Source of the DNA: Fimbriimonadaceae bacterium
GTDB lineage: Bacteria > Armatimonadota > Fimbriimonadia > Fimbriimonadales > Fimbriimonadaceae
DNA length: 64,000 nucleotides
Direction of reading: 5' to 3'
Assembly (NCBI GenBank): GCA_020847855.1
Contig: JADLBH010000038.1
Span: 1 to 64,000, forward strand
Each line of letters begins with the position of its first letter. Positions within the stretch are counted from its first letter, which is position 1. Shown here piece after piece: positions 18,915 to 26,500 of this stretch. The translations under genes and the position numbers were made by a program. The notes below the pieces were generated by a model, which saw only the letters and a program-made list of their open reading frames with translations, searched no databases and was not told the origin of the DNA.

Positions 18915-20735
18915 TTAGTCCTTCTTGACGAACTTCCGCTTCGTCTTGTCGAAGCCCTGGTCCACCTTCTTGTGGTCATAGTGCCAGACTGGGGAGCCGC
19001 TCCTTTGATAGAAGCACACATAGCCGCTCAGCAAGCTCGCGAGCATCCGCCGGCTGGACCTGCGGACGACGTTCACCTCCCAGAGTAGGGTGAGGAAGTC
19101 CACTCCCTTGGGCCAGTGTGCGATGACCTCGCGGACGATTTGGTAGGTGGACTTTCCTTCGGACTCACCCGCGATCTCGCGCAGTTCCTCCATGCGCTGG
19201 CTACTGATGTAGACCACTGGGTCGTTCTGCCCCAACCATGCAAAGTCGAAGACGTTCGGCTTCTCGGTGCGGCTCAGCGTGAAGACGGCGCCGGACTCGA
19301 CGGGCTGGTCGAGCCAGAGGTCGATGAGACCGAAGATGAGGCGCCTCTCGTTGTTGAGCCAGAAGGAGTGTTCCTCGCCTTCGTCGGTGCGCCAGACGAG
19401 CTCCTGGATCTTGGGCTCGCCTTGGAACCAATCCGTGGGGAACTGAGAAAGCGGGAACGTGCCCAACTCTCGGTGGATGGGCTTGAGGACGAGCCTCATC
19501 GAGTCCGGCTGGTTCTTCGGCGCGGCGTGGTAGTCCTCATCGTTCACATCTGTGGCGAGCGGGTGCTCGATGAGCTTCCTCAAGGACGTGCTGAGACCGT
19601 CGTCCGTGAGCTCCACGTCCACCATTTCACCCTCCTCGTCAAGGAGGTCGGAGTTGGCGAACAGGAAGGGCGCGGGCAAGTCTTCGATCCCCTCGGCGGC
19701 CGTTCCCGCCTTTCGGAACCGGTCGCCTCCCACCCAGAGCAGCCCGGACTCGGCCCGGAGGGCTGCGATGACGGTCGCCAGGTCGTCGGGGAAGGTCTTC
19801 ACGGACGGGGTGATCTCGAATTCGTTCTCCAAGATGCTGGTCGCCGCCACGGACTCGTTGCTTGCGAGGATCTGCTTGACCATTTTCTCCACGTTGGCCT
19901 TCTTGAGCTCGAGCGGTGCCGCGTCCTCGATCTCGATCACTGCCTTCGCCTTTTCCGCGACCTTGGCCGCCTTTGCGAGCCAATCCTTCACGGTCGTTTC
20001 GGGATAGATGGTCCCGTCGGCGCCGTAGACAAACCCTGGGACGCTGAGGAGCTCTGCGTTGAACGCGCGCCAGTCGAAGTGGTGCTCGCTTTGCGGATCC
20101 TCAGGATTGAGGGCGCACCAAGCCACGGCCCCAAGCACTTTCGCGCTTACGGGCGCAGCCTTGTCGAGTGCGCTCACGATCGCGTCTCCGTTGAGCCAGT
20201 CGAGCTTCGCGAGCACTTTCGCGACCCTCTCGACCTCATCGGCTTCGACCTGGTTCAGGGCCAGGGCGCGGTCGCGGCTCTCGTCGCCGGCGGTGAAGAC
20301 CATGCCGGAGGTCGCCACGCGACCGTCCTTGGTCAGGAGCAAGGTGTCGTCGCTCGAGGCGATGCGAGCGACGATCCTTTCTGCAACCTCGGTGTCCAGG
20401 CCATAGACGCGAGAAACCTCGAGCGCGAGGAGGGGCGCGGGCATCGGGCCACCGAAACGCTCGGCGGCAAGTCGGATCGCCTCGGCGATCGGGAGCCCAA
20501 CGCCAGCGACGCGGGCGGCGGGCACCCATCGCCGCTCGTGATAAGCGAACTTTTCTGGGTTCGAGGAGAGTAGGGATCGGACCGTGCCGAGCCCGATCCC
20601 TCGGTCTTTGAGCCGGTCAGAAATCTCGCCGGGCTTGACCGCTTCGTGGAGCTCGGTGAGTTGCTCGAGCACGATTCGGTCGGCGTATTCCCTGGCGACG
20701 TGCTCGGGGGTGGTGGTGGGTGCTGCGTTGGCCAA
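18915..20735 (-). CDS. Large protein with winged-helix repeats, unknown function
   Basis: The 606-residue protein starts at TTG with GAGG upstream. I do not recognise a named family. The first 330 residues hold three segments shaped like winged helices (HEAVKPGEISDRLKDRGIG with FAYHERRWVPA; LEVSRVYGLDTEVAERIVARI; SILENEFEITPSVKTFPDDL with GLLWVGGDRFRKAG), comparable to HARE-type or RpoE-delta HTH modules. An acidic middle and a basic C-terminus ending KTKRKFVKKD follow. It could bind nucleic acid. It is transcribed away from the capsid cassette. Confidence 0.55.
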   Translation of the reverse strand: MANAAPTTTPEHVAREYADRIVLEQLTELHEAVKPGEISDRLKDRGIGLGTVRSLLSSNPEKFAYHERRWVPAARVAGVGLPIAEAIRLAAERFGGPMPAPLLALEVSRVYGLDTEVAERIVARIASSDDTLLLTKDGRVATSGMVFTAGDESRDRALALNQVEADEVERVAKVLAKLDWLNGDAIVSALDKAAPVSAKVLGAVAWCALNPEDPQSEHHFDWRAFNAELLSVPGFVYGADGTIYPETTVKDWLAKAAKVAEKAKAVIEIEDAAPLELKKANVEKMVKQILASNESVAATSILENEFEITPSVKTFPDDLATVIAALRAESGLLWVGGDRFRKAGTAAEGIEDLPAPFLFANSDLLDEEGEMVDVELTDDGLSTSLRKLIEHPLATDVNDEDYHAAPKNQPDSMRLVLKPIHRELGTFPLSQFPTDWFQGEPKIQELVWRTDEGEEHSFWLNNERRLIFGLIDLWLDQPVESGAVFTLSRTEKPNVFDFAWLGQNDPVVYISSQRMEELREIAGESEGKSTYQIVREVIAHWPKGVDFLTLLWEVNVVRRSSRRMLASLLSGYVCFYQRSGSPVWHYDHKKVDQGFDKTKRKFVKKD

Positions 20736-20888
20736 AGCGGGATCCTCGGACGGTTGAACACCGTCCGGCGAACCTTCAATGTAGCACTTTTCGTGGTGCC
20801 CTTGAGTCGAGAGTCCCCCATGGGTTGGGCCCTTCCGGAATCGCTGGTTGACGTTCTCGGGTCGGGGTGCCCTCCCCTACGAACCGAC
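20736..20888. promoter_or_regulatory. Divergent leader region with 8-bp hairpin
   Basis: This 153-bp gap lies between the winged-helix gene (minus) and the capsid cassette (plus). At 20747-20767 an 8-bp inverted repeat, CGGACGGT and ACCGTCCG with a 5-nt loop, lies 12 bp upstream of the winged-helix TTG start. An ATG at 20820 is in frame with the protease and is an alternative start. No clear promoter hexamers were seen. Confidence 0.35.
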
Positions 20889-21794
20889 ATGAACGACACC
20901 ATCGAATCCAAGGTTCCCGAGGCCATCGAGGGGCTCCGACGTGCAGCGTCTTGGGGGCCAGGTTACCTGGGGACGCGAGAGCCTGCGTCCGACTCGGAAC
21001 GCACGCAACTCGCCGAGCAGCTCGCGATCGCGGGCGAGGAAGTACCTACGTACCTCAAGGCAAGCCCGATCTGGGTGGACCGACGAGCGAAGCTCTTCGA
21101 GGTCGGCGAATACCCGGACAAGGGCGTGACCGTGCTCCCGTCCCACCTTGAGCAGCTTGCAGCGAACTTCGACCTGCCCGTGCCCGTTCTCATCGAGCAT
21201 GCCAAGTCGCCGCTCGAGATTGGATACCTAACCTCGCTCGAAGCCGAGGGCGACGAGCTCTTTGGCACGATCGCCCTGACGGAGCAAGCCCACGGCCTCA
21301 TTGAGAGCTCGGGTGCGCGGTCCTTGTCCTTGGGCCTCGACAGCGACCTCACGCAGGTTCGCGAGGTCAGCCTTGTCCGCTCACCCAGAATCGCCTCGGC
21401 CCGCCTTTTCTCCTCCCCGGTCGAGTTCGCCCATGTGTGGCAGACCGACTGGCAGTCCGAGCGAAGCCAGTACTTGGCCTCCAAGAACGAAGAGTGGCTC
21501 GAAGGCCTAGTCGCGAAGGGAAGGGCACTGCCCGCCCAACTGCCCCATGCCCGTGCCCTCCTTGCTTGTGAGGAGGGCGTGAGCTTCGACGGGGGCAAAG
21601 TGCCGGTCTCCCGTCTCGCCCGGGCCCTGCTCGAGTCCGGGCCGGTTCACGCCTTGTTCACCAGGACCGTGCCCGAGAAGGGTCCGGCAGTCTCCGCGCT
21701 TCCGCCCGAGGAAGCCGACTTCTATCGCCGCCACTTTCCCGGCGTGAGCTTGGAAGAGATCGCGCTTCGCAGGAAGGACGACCCGGCGGCGTAG
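20889..21794 (+). CDS. Phage-type head maturation protease (Mu gpI-like)
   Basis: The 301-residue protein has the fold signature of Mu-like prophage I proteases: LKASPIWVDRR, then LFEVGEYPDKGVTVLPSHLEQLA, PVLIEHAKSP (His of the catalytic pair), GARSLSLGLD (Ser) and VREVSLVRSPRIASARLFS. The C-terminal part is a scaffold-like acidic/basic region. In phages this protease clips scaffold and capsid during assembly. The start at 20889 is chosen over an in-frame ATG at 20820 because similarity to the family begins later. It opens the capsid cassette, 20 bp before the next gene. Confidence 0.75.
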   Translation: MNDTIESKVPEAIEGLRRAASWGPGYLGTREPASDSERTQLAEQLAIAGEEVPTYLKASPIWVDRRAKLFEVGEYPDKGVTVLPSHLEQLAANFDLPVPVLIEHAKSPLEIGYLTSLEAEGDELFGTIALTEQAHGLIESSGARSLSLGLDSDLTQVREVSLVRSPRIASARLFSSPVEFAHVWQTDWQSERSQYLASKNEEWLEGLVAKGRALPAQLPHARALLACEEGVSFDGGKVPVSRLARALLESGPVHALFTRTVPEKGPAVSALPPEEADFYRRHFPGVSLEEIALRRKDDPAA

Positions 21795-21814
21795 CCGCCC
21801 ACACAACAAACCTC

Positions 21815-22252
21815 ATGGCTCTAAGCAAATCATTCGAGACGTACGAGCGGCCAGGACTGGTCGTGTCGTACAAAGTCAACAACGTCAAGGTCTTCAAGGG
21901 CGCCCTAGTGGGCGTCAACGCCGCGGGTATGGCGGTGCCGATGTCCCATGCGACGGCGGGGCTCAAGCTCGTCGGCGTGGCGAACGAGACCGTGGACAAC
22001 ACCCCGGGCGCCGCGGGCGCGAAGAGCGTCAACGCGACCAAGGCCGGTGCCTTCGTCTTCAAGGCCGCTTCGGGCTACACGCCTGTGCAGTCCGACCTCG
22101 GCAAGGAGGTCTATTGCACGACCGATTGGGAAGTTCAGGTCTCCACGGTCGGTCTCACGAACCAGTACAAGGTCGGAACGATCGTCGCCGTGGAGGCGGC
22201 ATCGACGGGCCAGGCGGGCGTACGCGTCCGCATTGACAACTACAACGTTTAG
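21815..22252 (+). CDS. Capsid decoration-like protein (DUF2190-type)
   Basis: The 145-residue, Ala/Val/Gly-rich protein looks like the small beta-rich proteins placed between protease and major capsid in Mu-like phages: residues 1-40 contain RPGLVVSYKVNNVKVFKGALVG and VGVANETVDN, and the end GVRVRIDNYNV. Assignment rests on size, composition and position, and a few motifs, so it is tentative. It is 15 bp from the major capsid gene. Confidence 0.6.
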   Translation: MALSKSFETYERPGLVVSYKVNNVKVFKGALVGVNAAGMAVPMSHATAGLKLVGVANETVDNTPGAAGAKSVNATKAGAFVFKAASGYTPVQSDLGKEVYCTTDWEVQVSTVGLTNQYKVGTIVAVEAASTGQAGVRVRIDNYNV

Positions 22253-22267
22253 TACAAGGATCAAACT

Positions 22268-23209
22268 ATGGCACTTACCAAATCCGACATTCCTGACCTC
22301 TTGCTCCCCGGCCTCAAGACCGAGTTCGAACTGGCCTACCGGGCCCAGGTCGAGGACAGCATCGCCAACACGATCGCAACGGTCGTGAGCACGACCCAAC
22401 CGGTGCAGAAGTACGCCTGGCTGGGTGCATCCCCGCCGATGCGCGAGTTCGTGGACGAGCGCAGGCCCCAAGGCATGGCTTCATACTCCGTGACGATCGA
22501 GGACAAGGTCTTCGAGAGCACGATCGCGGTGGATCGGCGCGCCATCGAGGACGACCAGATTGACCTGATCCGGCTCCGGGTTCAGGACCTCGCGACCCGT
22601 GTAAGCCAGCACCGGCACCAGATCGTGGTCGAGTCGCTCCTCGCGGGTGGAGCCGGCATCGGCTATGACGGCTTGCCCTTCTTCAGCACGTCGCACCCGA
22701 CCTTCGGTGCCGCGACCGAGAGCAACACGACAACGGCCCAGCTTAGCGGGACGAGCCTGGCCGACGCGATGTCCGCGATGATGCGGTACCGTGACGACAG
22801 TGGCACCCCCATTGGGGTCGTCCCCGACACGTTGGTGGTCGGCCCGAAGAAGATGTGGGAGGCGATCGAGCTCGTCGAGAGTCCGGTCGTGGTCTATAAG
22901 GGCACGGGTACGGCAGGTACTTCGCCCACCGACTACGTGAACGCCTTCCGCGGGAGGCTTCGGCTCGTCGTCTCGCCCTACGTCACGGGTAGCCAAGAGG
23001 ACGCGTGGTTCCTTCTCGACACGACACGGCCGATCAAGGGCATCGTCTTGCAGCAGCGCTCCGACGTCCCGGTGGAGTTCACCGCGCTAGAGTCCAACTC
23101 GGGCAGTGAGTCTGCATTCATGCGCGACCGCTATTTCTACGGGATCCGGGCCCGGTACAACGTCGGCTACGGCCTCTGGCAGGCGGCATTCGGTGGAAAA
23201 CTGGCTTAG
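22268..23209 (+). CDS. Phage major capsid protein (Mu gpT-like)
   Basis: The 313-residue protein matches Mu-type major head subunits: the N-terminus LTKSDIPDLLLPGLKTEF, then KYAWLGASPPMREFVDERR, TIEDKVFESTIAVDRRAIEDD and FFSTSHPTFG, followed by the MRYRDDSGTPIGVVPDTLVVGP segment, and finally the ESAFMRDRYFYGIRARYNVGYGLWQAAFGG end. HK97-fold shells of phages are built from this family. The frame is intact and uninterrupted. The small membrane protein gene begins inside its last 17 bp. Confidence 0.85.
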   Translation: MALTKSDIPDLLLPGLKTEFELAYRAQVEDSIANTIATVVSTTQPVQKYAWLGASPPMREFVDERRPQGMASYSVTIEDKVFESTIAVDRRAIEDDQIDLIRLRVQDLATRVSQHRHQIVVESLLAGGAGIGYDGLPFFSTSHPTFGAATESNTTTAQLSGTSLADAMSAMMRYRDDSGTPIGVVPDTLVVGPKKMWEAIELVESPVVVYKGTGTAGTSPTDYVNAFRGRLRLVVSPYVTGSQEDAWFLLDTTRPIKGIVLQQRSDVPVEFTALESNSGSESAFMRDRYFYGIRARYNVGYGLWQAAFGGKLA

Positions 23210-23438
23210 CCTGGCCACCGCACTGGGCTTGGGGGGGAGCCTCGGCGCCCTCCTCGCCTTTCTCGTCGCAGGCCGGAAGTTCGCCGGAAGATTGAGGTCC
23301 CTCATCTCCTCCCTCGAAAAGGCGCTGCTGGACATGAGGCGGGCCGACCTCAACGCGCTGCGAGACGAGATGGTCCTGGTCGAGCAGGAGGCCCGTCGGC
23401 TCTTCGGCCTGTTGAGCGGGCTCTTGAAGGGACGTTGA
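23193..23438 (+). CDS. Small membrane-anchored coiled-coil protein in capsid cassette
   Basis: The 81-residue protein starts at GTG inside the end of the major capsid gene. It has one N-terminal transmembrane helix (LGLGGSLGALLAFLVAG) followed by an amphipathic helix with heptads (LISSLEKALLDMRRADLNAL). No family is recognised. A holin is possible by size and single-helix layout, but no endolysin is nearby. Confidence 0.5.
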   Translation: MENWLSLATALGLGGSLGALLAFLVAGRKFAGRLRSLISSLEKALLDMRRADLNALRDEMVLVEQEARRLFGLLSGLLKGR

Positions 23439-23473
23439 CACCAGGGGGCCCCACGGCCCCCACCCCACATTCT

Positions 23474-23725
23474 ATGCAGAACTTGACTGAGCTACTCGCC
23501 GTCTTGGCGACATTCGTCGGTGCGTCGTTCACGTTGGTGCGAATGACGCTCGCCCAGCAGCAACGCTCCACCGAGCGCTTCGTGGCCTTTCTGGAATCGT
23601 CGCTCGTGCGGCAAGAGGCGACGATCGGTTCGTTCCGAGGCTCCTTGGACAATCTCTCGGAAGCGATTGCCGAGCATAACGCCCTCCTTCGCCGTGTGAC
23701 GGAGACTGCGGGAGGCCGTTCGTGA
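23474..23725 (+). CDS. Second small membrane-anchored coiled-coil protein
   Basis: The 83-residue protein has a hydrophobic N-terminal helix (LTELLAVLATFVGASFTLV) and a long charged helix with heptad spacing (RSTERFVAFLESSL, LDNLSEAIAEHNALLRRV). Its architecture repeats that of the previous gene, though the sequences are not clearly homologous. It overlaps the following gene by 4 bp (GTGA). Function unknown. Confidence 0.5.
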   Translation: MQNLTELLAVLATFVGASFTLVRMTLAQQQRSTERFVAFLESSLVRQEATIGSFRGSLDNLSEAIAEHNALLRRVTETAGGRS

Positions 23726-24138
23726 GCCTCGTCGTCACCGTAACTGCGGTGAAGGAGAAGACGCGGGTCACCGATTCTTCTCTCGACTCCCTGGTGGCAA
23801 ACCTCATTGCGCAATGGGTGCCGATGCTGGAGTTCGCCATTCGGAGCGAGCCCTTGGCCGACACCGGCAACACTGGCCTGCAGGCCACGTTGAATCTTGG
23901 AGCGATCGAGGCCGTGGGCGGCGAGCTCCTCTCGCAGCTCGCCCGCGAGCCTGGCGCGGTCGAGTCCTTCAGCTTCGGGTTCTTCGAGCTCGGGCCAGCA
24001 GGCGGGGCGGCAATTGACCCCAGCGGGCTCAAGGCCCAAGGATATGCACGCTTGCGACCGTTCCTTAAGTCGCCTGAGTTCCTTGCCGGCACCCTTGGCG
24101 TCGCTGCCGGAGGATCCCGCACGGGTGAGGACGAGTGA
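23722..24138 (+). CDS. Probable phage head-tail connector-like protein
   Basis: The 138-residue protein begins with a segment like gp6-type connectors: VTDSSLDSLVANLIAQWVPMLEFAI, a helical bundle start with alternating Leu/Ile, and is followed by SGLKAQGYARLRPFL. Assignment is mainly by position directly after the capsid gene set. It starts at GTG overlapping the previous stop and overlaps the next gene (GTGA) by 4 bp, so the three are tightly coupled. Confidence 0.45.
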   Translation: MSLVVTVTAVKEKTRVTDSSLDSLVANLIAQWVPMLEFAIRSEPLADTGNTGLQATLNLGAIEAVGGELLSQLAREPGAVESFSFGFFELGPAGGAAIDPSGLKAQGYARLRPFLKSPEFLAGTLGVAAGGSRTGEDE

Positions 24139-24437
24139 CCGCGCTCCAGCGGCGGGTTCAGGGCCATGTCGCGAGGAACGGAGACGCCTTCACACTGGCG
24201 GGCCAGCCTGCCAAGGGAGTCTTCTCCCACGCTCCCTTCGGCACGATGCGCCTCTACCTTCCGGTATCGGTCGTGGACACCTTGGTGCCCCCTTATGTCC
24301 TATGCCTGGTGAACCAGGCCACGACCGCGGTGGAAGGCGACTCGGTGTCGTGGAACGGGCGGTCTCTCGTGGTGAAGCGGGTGGTCGAGGCCCGCTGGGG
24401 CGGGGCGGTCGCAGGTCGGTTGCTTGTGCTTGGCTAG
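24135..24437 (+). CDS. Probable phage neck/head-closure-like protein
   Basis: The 100-residue beta-rich protein (MRLYLPVSVVDTLVPPYVLCLVN, then VEGDSVSWNGRSLVVKRVVEARWGG) has the size and pattern of head-closure or minor tail adaptor proteins that follow connectors. In known phages the pattern V-x-W-x-G-x-x-L-x-V-x-x-V is common in this class. The assignment is tentative. It is the last gene of the cassette; no tail gene follows. Confidence 0.45.
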   Translation: MTALQRRVQGHVARNGDAFTLAGQPAKGVFSHAPFGTMRLYLPVSVVDTLVPPYVLCLVNQATTAVEGDSVSWNGRSLVVKRVVEARWGGAVAGRLLVLG

Positions 24438-24994: not shown

Positions 24995-26500
24995 GTGAAG
25001 ATTCTCGTCATCGGGAGCGGGCCGATCGTGATCGGGCAGGCTGCGGAATTCGACTACGCCGGGACCCAGGCATGCCGGGCGCTCCGGGAGGAAGGCTGCG
25101 AGGTCGTCCTGATCAACAGCAACCCGGCCACGATCATGACCGATCCCGAGACTGCGGACGCCGTCTACATCGAGCCCTTGACCGTGGACTTTTGCGAGAG
25201 GGTCATTGCCAAGGAGCGGCCCGAAGGGCTCCTTGCGACCTTGGGGGGCCAGACCGGGCTCAACCTCGCTTCCCAACTCGCGGCCGCCGGCGTTTTTGAG
25301 AAGTACGGGGTGCGGCTGCTCGGCACGAAGCTCGAGTCCATCCAGATGGCCGAGGATCGAGAGCTCTTCCGGGCTCTGATGCGCGAGATCGGCGAGCCCG
25401 TACCCGAGAGTTGGATCGTGGAGTCCGAATCCGACCTGGAGGCACTGCTCGACACCGTTCCCTACCCCTGCATCGTCCGGCCCGCGTACACCTTGGGGGG
25501 CACAGGAGGGGGCGTAGCCTACGACCGTGAGGCCCTTTGGGAGATCGGCCGAAAGGGCCTCAAGCTCTCGATGCGGTCGCAGCTCATGGTGGAGCGATCG
25601 CTGTTGGGGTGGAAGGAAGTCGAGTACGAGGTCATGCGCGACTCCGCGGGAACGTGCATCACGGTCTGCAACATGGAGAACCTCGACCCTATGGGGGTCC
25701 ACACCGGTGACTCCATCGTCGTCGCCCCCTCGCAGACCTTGACCGACATCGAGTACCACATGCTCCGCACGGCCTCTCTCAAGATCATTCGAGCCTTGGG
25801 GATCGAGGGCGGGTGCAACGTCCAACTCGCCGTGAATCCGGACAGCTTCGACTACTACATCATCGAAGTGAACCCGCGAGTGTCGCGGTCCTCGGCGCTC
25901 GCCTCCAAGGCGACCGGTTACCCGATCGCGCGGGTGGCCGCCAAGATCGCCCTCGGGATGCGCTTGGACGAGATCCCGAACAGCATCACGGGCACCACGA
26001 AAGCGTCGTTCGAGCCCAGCTTGGACTATTGCGTGGTCAAGATTCCCCGCTGGCCGTTCGACAAGTTCGTGAGCGGCGACCGGACGCTCGGCACCCAGAT
26101 GAAGGCCACTGGAGAGGTCATGGCGATTGACCGGACCTTCGAAGGAGCGCTCGTGAAAGCGGTAGCGGGTTTGGAAGTTCGGAACAAGGACCTCGACGAT
26201 CTCGGTTACCGCAAGGCCACCGAGGAAGAATTGGCGGAGTTCGTACGGGTTCCGACCGACGGTCGGCTTTGGGCCTTGGCCGAGGCCCTACGTCGAGGGT
26301 GGACGATCGCCGAGGTGAACCGTCTTTCCAAAGTGGACCCCTGGTTCCTCGAAAAGATCAAGGGAGCGGTCCAGAGTCCTCCCCCCAACCCCATTGCCTA
26401 CAAGATGGTGGACACTTGCGCAGGGGAGTTCGACTCTCGCACCCCGTACTACTACGCCACCTGCGAAGCCGAGAGCGACATGGTGGCCGATCCCTCGTGA
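24995..26500 (+). CDS. carB: Carbamoyl-phosphate synthase large chain, N-terminal half only
   Basis: The 501-residue protein covers only the first half of CarB: the carboxyphosphate domain ([73 protein letters not shown]) and the oligomerisation domain, ending just before where the second synthetase domain would begin ([16 protein letters not shown]). Normal CarB is about 1070 residues. The stop overlaps the next gene's GTG by 4 bp and no second half follows, so this is a split CarB like those of some archaea and Aquifex, or a truncation. It begins at GTG directly on the nucleotide-binding strand. Confidence 0.88.

Follow-up and report, generated by a model that had tools for sequence, protein, structure and literature searches.

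The head gene cassette

The window analysed here is a stretch of 64,000 nucleotides from a Fimbriimonadaceae bacterium (assembly GCA_020847855.1, contig JADLBH010000038.1, positions 1 to 64,000), whose genome amounts to 2.53 Mb and is 97% complete. On the + strand, between positions 20889 and 24437, it contains a cassette of seven intact and close-set open reading frames (ORFs), several of them overlapping by 4 to 17 nucleotides (nt). ORF calls and family matches bear out a preliminary description of the same DNA, which had recognized a tightly packed set of intact phage head genes here. Together with genes found elsewhere in the genome and in its relatives (G, C, L and f numbers denote genomes, contigs, loci and families), the cassette probably belongs to a DNA-packaging and lysis system akin to gene transfer agents (GTAs), distributed over several loci and inherited vertically.

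The first gene (20889–21794) encodes a head maturation protease-like protein of 301 amino acids (phrog_976, E 6.3e-9), with an orthologue at 38 of 40 loci; translation is taken to start at the ATG at 20889, an alternative, longer frame beginning with a GTG at 20646. It is followed by a decoration-like virion structural protein of 145 residues (21815–22252; phrog_1731, E 5.9e-22; orthologue at 39 of the 40 loci) and by the major capsid protein, a Mu gpT-like protein of the HK97 type containing 313 residues (22268–23209; PF10124, E 3.6e-58; phrog_371, E 4.9e-62). Next come two small proteins. The first (about 23193–23438) has one predicted membrane segment (hydropathy 1.98 over 19 residues) and a related ORF at 36 of the 40 loci, and is called holin-like from its position and shape only. 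The second (about 23474–23725) combines a membrane segment (hydropathy 1.88) with a coiled coil and gives a weak match to the holin family phrog_9316 (E 0.13); its orthologues adjoin the capsid gene in another family (L241, L255), and by inference it too is holin-like.

The cassette ends with two proteins of the neck, a head-tail connector of the adaptor type (23722–24138, 138 residues) and a head-tail stopper of the lambda/T1 type (24135–24437, 100 residues). Compared with PHROGs, Pfam and the PDB, the sequences of the two window proteins gave no direct family match, and little was matched overall; two of 27 adaptor orthologues match Phage_connect_1 (best E 0.0032). The fold comparisons were made with predicted models. 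The AlphaFold model of the stopper (pLDDT 92) superposes clearly on known structures, namely the T1 stopper (Z 10.2), the lambda neck (Z 9.0–9.5) and the RcGTA particle (PDB entry 6tba, Z 8.2), and its predicted fold is clearly that of a stopper. For the adaptor, the best matches are the Bxb1 connector (Z 7.7) and the SaPI1 neck (Z 5.5), which for a helical fold are weak, so that its assignment has weaker support. The models thus back the label "connector-like" that both proteins had been given beforehand, plainly for the stopper and less firmly for the adaptor.

The cassette is flanked by host genes, named from their sequences as rpsT, a gene for a conserved protein of 606 residues, a gene for an RRM protein and carB, and its GC content of 0.64–0.65 is that of the neighbouring genes, in agreement with the ordinary flanks and neighbour-like composition noted previously. 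No tRNA gene was found near the cassette. The gene for the 606-residue protein (18915–20735, - strand) adjoins it and is close to it at about ten loci; no Pfam family matches the protein. The carB gene (24995–26500) is of half length (501 residues), and contig C2 carries another CarB-like piece; CarB is present as separate halves in many Fimbriimonadaceae genomes, and as a single frame of about 1,050–1,180 residues in families f2 and f5. Genes for a decarboxylase, an M50 peptidase, a tRNA synthetase, PEP-CTERM and prepilin-like proteins and L28, which lie near the cassette or the terminase in some genomes, were judged to be host genes.

Terminase and portal at a second locus

The absence of terminase and portal, part of the preliminary description, holds for the cassette itself but not for the genome: a search of the rest of the assembly found both, so that the idea of a head set truly devoid of packaging genes was wrong at this scale. 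A Mu-type portal gene (PF06074, E 1.8e-65) is located at the end of contig C1. The gene for the terminase large subunit (TerL) begins at the start of contig C3, and its C-terminal part is on the end of C1, so TerL and portal most likely form a single two-gene locus interrupted by a contig gap. A SurA-like and an fpg-like gene (names from sequence) lie next to this locus. The Walker A motif (GRRWGK), the Walker B motif (DEAA) and the nuclease aspartates of TerL are the same, or nearly so, in every sequence covering them among the 40 examined. Conservation of the ATPase and nuclease residues makes DNA packaging the likely activity of the system.

In closed genomes, the capsid gene is also remote from the packaging genes: at 1.247 Mb in G007, with terminase and portal together at 0.491 Mb, and at 1.41 Mb in G041, with portal and terminase at 1.23 and 2.27 Mb, respectively. 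In G015 all three are together (L042). In family f2 they mostly occupy three unlinked places, whose host neighbours vary even inside a genus, yet all three genes persist; the part of the cassette that stays linked in some f2 genomes is just the protease, decoration and capsid genes.

Conservation, co-occurrence and selection

With few exceptions, the roughly 40 loci agree in the order of the cassette genes. Orthologues of capsid, portal and terminase occur in single copy across the taxonomic order and are usually unlinked. Among 61 related genomes, scored for strong matches, 41 have both capsid and portal, none capsid only, four portal only and 16 neither; for portal and terminase the numbers are 44 with both, one with portal only, none with terminase only and 16 with neither. 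These counts depend on incomplete genomes, and the Fisher tests, which gave p values below 1e-9 throughout, do not take relatedness into account. In comparisons inside a single genus, the capsid has a dN/dS of 0.02–0.07 and the terminase (two pairs) one of 0.07–0.15, values that point to strong purifying selection on both genes. A comparison of related genomes had been proposed beforehand as a check on the cassette; its gene order and single copy hold across family, order and phylum, with the low capsid dN/dS just given.

Capsid and portal distances, although these genes are mostly unlinked, agree closely (Mantel r 0.85, p ≤ 0.001; the statistics are without phylogenetic correction). Most taxonomic families are monophyletic in both the capsid and the portal trees. 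Family f1 is so only in the portal tree, f5 being nested within it in the capsid tree.

A shared promoter motif

A promoter-like element, GGTTGAC, is present upstream of the cassette (20846–20852, + strand), and the same motif precedes the terminase gene at the other locus. It was found upstream of 19 of 41 protease and TerL genes (46%) versus four of 279 control genes having an upstream gap (1.4%; p 9e-16), usually 30–60 nt before the start codon. The extended form GTTGAC-N16-19-CTA is present in 12 of the 41 upstream regions and in none of the 279 controls; the window copy at 20846 is without the CTA part at this spacing. Given its likeness to a -35 box, the motif may belong to a strong promoter and not be a dedicated operator. 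At L034, L045 and L046, and less clearly at L047 and L056, the region ahead of the protease gene has an inverted repeat like AGAC-N4-GTCT between GGTTGAC and CTA, a possible repressor site.

Distribution in the phylum and phage relatives

Capsid matches with E ≤ 1e-30 are present in 118 of 291 Armatimonadota genomes, belonging to more than a dozen families, and are nearly always single-copy. In deep-branching families the genes form a united or near-united operon for a protein like the terminase small subunit (TerS), TerL, portal, protease, decoration protein, capsid, adaptor, stopper and small membrane proteins, with no tail genes between the stopper and the host genes. The operons of G222 and G232 end in two lysis genes, one for a holin-like protein and one for an endolysin of the M15 type (the latter identified by eye in G232), which suggests release by lysis. 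Variable beta-rich ORFs, of 1005 residues at L253 and 352 residues at L255, are located between capsid and adaptor genes; that they are head fibres is a guess.

A second type of head set, with a different terminase and portal and an SppA-like protease, is found in families f11 and f13 (L237/L238 in G105, L249 in G111, L254 in G106 and L256 in G086). It has a GH25-type endolysin in G105 and G106 and no obvious tail genes, and its capsids group with those of the IMG/VR phages L218 and L220. Prophage-like elements are present in the related genomes G005, G041 and G038. The one in G038 (L144/L145) is Mu-like; a single contig carries its related head (37–40% identical), its Mu-type terminase and an endolysin of the amidase type, and it is probably a real prophage relative. 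When IMG/VR was searched with the window capsid alone, no matches were obtained, and an order-wide capsid alignment retrieved distant phages only, with up to 44% identity; to the listed INPHARED phages, the window capsid is at most about 36% identical.

The preliminary description had also remarked on the absence of tail and integrase genes, and neither was found. There is no integrase among the window ORFs, and no integrase or replication genes adjoin the cassette in the window or in relatives. Beside about 60 head and terminase loci, no conserved tail gene was seen. The tape measure family PF10145 is above the cut-off in just four of 51 genomes, and in G005 it is near the prophage portal. 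It is likely, judging from these genes, that the system has no tail.

Interpretation

The genes are best explained as a vertically inherited, multi-locus, GTA-like system for DNA packaging and lysis, apparently either tail-less or with its tail encoded elsewhere, an explanation in which we place fairly good confidence. A tailed-phage head would have been domesticated early in the Armatimonadota and then passed on vertically as host genes. In the source genome the machine would have its parts in at least two loci that lie on separate contigs, the window cassette and the terminase-portal pair, probably activated together from GGTTGAC promoters. These genes would yield a small capsid, filled by the terminase, which would pump DNA in and cut it. 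As the system has no replication or integration genes of its own, this DNA would be mostly chromosomal, and genes at unlinked loci could not enter one packaged piece together. Stopper and adaptor would close the filled head, and the holin and endolysin, which share the operon in deep branches, would free the particles by lysing the cell. It is the combination of mostly chromosomal cargo, sealed head and lytic release that would make the system GTA-like; that particles form, carry random host DNA, are released and deliver this DNA to other cells is inferred. The earlier suggestion of a domesticated shell, perhaps part of a GTA, is in this respect strengthened by the conservation, single copy and low dN/dS of the genes.

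Several points weigh against this explanation. The Pfam families PF10145 (tape measure), PF04984 (sheath) and PF13550 (tip) were undetected in the source genome, where tube and baseplate families were not searched for. Vertical inheritance was tested with one host marker, carB, to which capsid and portal distances correlate only moderately (r 0.41 and 0.55); carB is a weak yardstick because it is split in many genomes. Some lineages are without the system. The f11/f13 variant groups with free phages, so not every capsid match need be the same element. G016 keeps portal and terminase without a capsid, and the capsid gene is split in G043 (C66) and G130 (C11, C4); local loss is possible in these three genomes.

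The alternative that survives best, though we regard it as unlikely, is a tail-less head that borrows the tails of resident or infecting phages, in the manner of capsid-forming phage-inducible chromosomal islands (cfPICIs) but as a permanent part of the chromosome. A satellite of this kind would need just such a gene set, with TerS, TerL, portal, protease, capsid, adaptor and stopper and without a tail; adaptor and stopper are the parts to which a tail docks, and prophage-like elements are present in the three relatives named above. Against this, host genes lie on both sides of the loci with no adjoining integrase or replication genes, scattered loci and vertical inheritance are unlike satellites, and in most carriers PF10145 detects no tail gene that could be stolen.

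Very unlikely is a decaying prophage, or scattered remnants from one or more integrations. The genes are phage-derived, lack integrase, replication and tail genes, and in a few genomes (G016, G043 and G130) are present as split or partial sets; decay is contradicted by intact frames, constant order, single copies and dN/dS of 0.02–0.15, by the co-occurrence of mostly unlinked genes, by the retained catalytic residues of TerL and by a promoter motif common to the loci.

HK97-type shells have been co-opted as compartments, and the window cassette by itself, without a packaging motor, would fit an empty or protein-filled compartment like an encapsulin, an option that the preliminary description had left standing. 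Because a conserved motor, portal, stopper and adaptor co-occur with the capsid in the same genomes, this option is disfavoured, and as the neighbours vary and no cargo enzyme is consistently linked, we consider it highly improbable. Satellites use head proteins against helper phages, and lysis genes share the operon with head genes in deep branches, but a defence device, in which capsid, terminase or neck proteins disturb phage assembly and lysis is an abortive response, is hardly credible given a full set with catalytic motor and neck, which exceeds the needs of interference, and conserved neighbours among which there are no defence genes (padloc was not run).

A more specific form of the GTA-like explanation can be put forward only tentatively, and we doubt it more than we believe it: a phylum-wide tail-less GTA, kept since early in the phylum, with DNA-filled heads closed by adaptor and stopper, release by lysis and tail-independent DNA entry, which might proceed, for example, through a head fibre and the recipient's own DNA uptake. 

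With or without a tail, a vertically kept system for head formation, packaging and lysis in 118 of 291 sampled genomes of a poorly cultured phylum would be, to our knowledge, the broadest domestication of this kind; GTA groups as classified in PMC9662315 occur in few lineages, each confined to an order or less. It offers a natural test of the minimal needs of a GTA, since it has genes for head, motor, neck and lysis but no detectable tail genes, and the promoter motif common to separate loci could help to trace the regulator and whatever parts are still missing.

Comparison with known systems

The accessible literature yielded no earlier description of a system like this from Armatimonadota; subscription literature was mostly outside the search, which leaves priority uncertain. 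The definition of GTAs has six features (PMC9662315): proteins derived from tailed phages; full endogenization, often at several loci; mostly vertical inheritance, co-diversifying with the host; packaging of mostly random host DNA; a head too small for the whole GTA genome; and delivery to other cells. The first three can be judged from sequence, and all three are present. The proteins derive from tailed phages (gpT capsid, Mu portal, TerL, stopper fold). Endogenization at several loci is seen in the capsid unlinked from terminase and portal in closed genomes, the three f2 loci and the host flanks. Vertical inheritance appears from family monophyly, co-divergence and co-occurrence, with the modest correlations given above for carB as the single host marker. 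With random packaging, the conserved TerL is compatible.

Like RcGTA, BaGTA and BhGTA/VSH-1, the system consists of tailed-phage particle genes fixed in the chromosome, spread over loci and vertically inherited (PMC9662315); in BhGTA the single terL gene lies outside the structural cluster (PMC9662315). Unlike them, it has a Mu gpT-type head and a phylum-wide range, and where they carry tails, none was found. The only link with RcGTA tested is the stopper fold (Z 8.2).

With Mu, SfMu, D108 and the IMG/VR phages L214–L220 it shares the gpT capsid, the Mu-type portal and the decoration-capsid order. In contrast, tail-type genes (tail completion, tape measure) follow downstream in L215 and L218, whereas at about 40 loci here no transposition, replication or tail modules adjoin the head genes; the element of G038, in which a single contig holds the head, terminase and lysis genes, is the contrasting Mu-like case. 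Encapsulin-type systems combine a shell and a cargo enzyme without a motor, while motor and portal are conserved here in the same genomes as the shell.

The cfPICIs, which have their own heads and no tails of their own, are nearest in head-only content, and the united operons from TerS to stopper, with lysis genes, likewise hold head and packaging genes without a tail. These islands are mobile and use helper tails; the title of one study has it that such satellites steal only tails (Alqurainy 2023, cited in PMC11389934). The Armatimonadota loci are instead flanked by host genes, with no integrase among the ORFs; they are dispersed and vertically inherited, and in deep branches they come with lysis genes.

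Nearest in organization is FpGTA of Faecalibacterium, in which a short operon encodes TerS, TerL, the portal and capsid proteins, a second locus lies about 125 kb from it, lysis genes are present, and the particles, about 40 nm in size, show no identifiable tails (PMC12946183). It differs in its probably podovirus-like genes, its scaffold protein, a second operon for baseplate, fibre and receptor-binding protein, and a range of one genus rather than a phylum.

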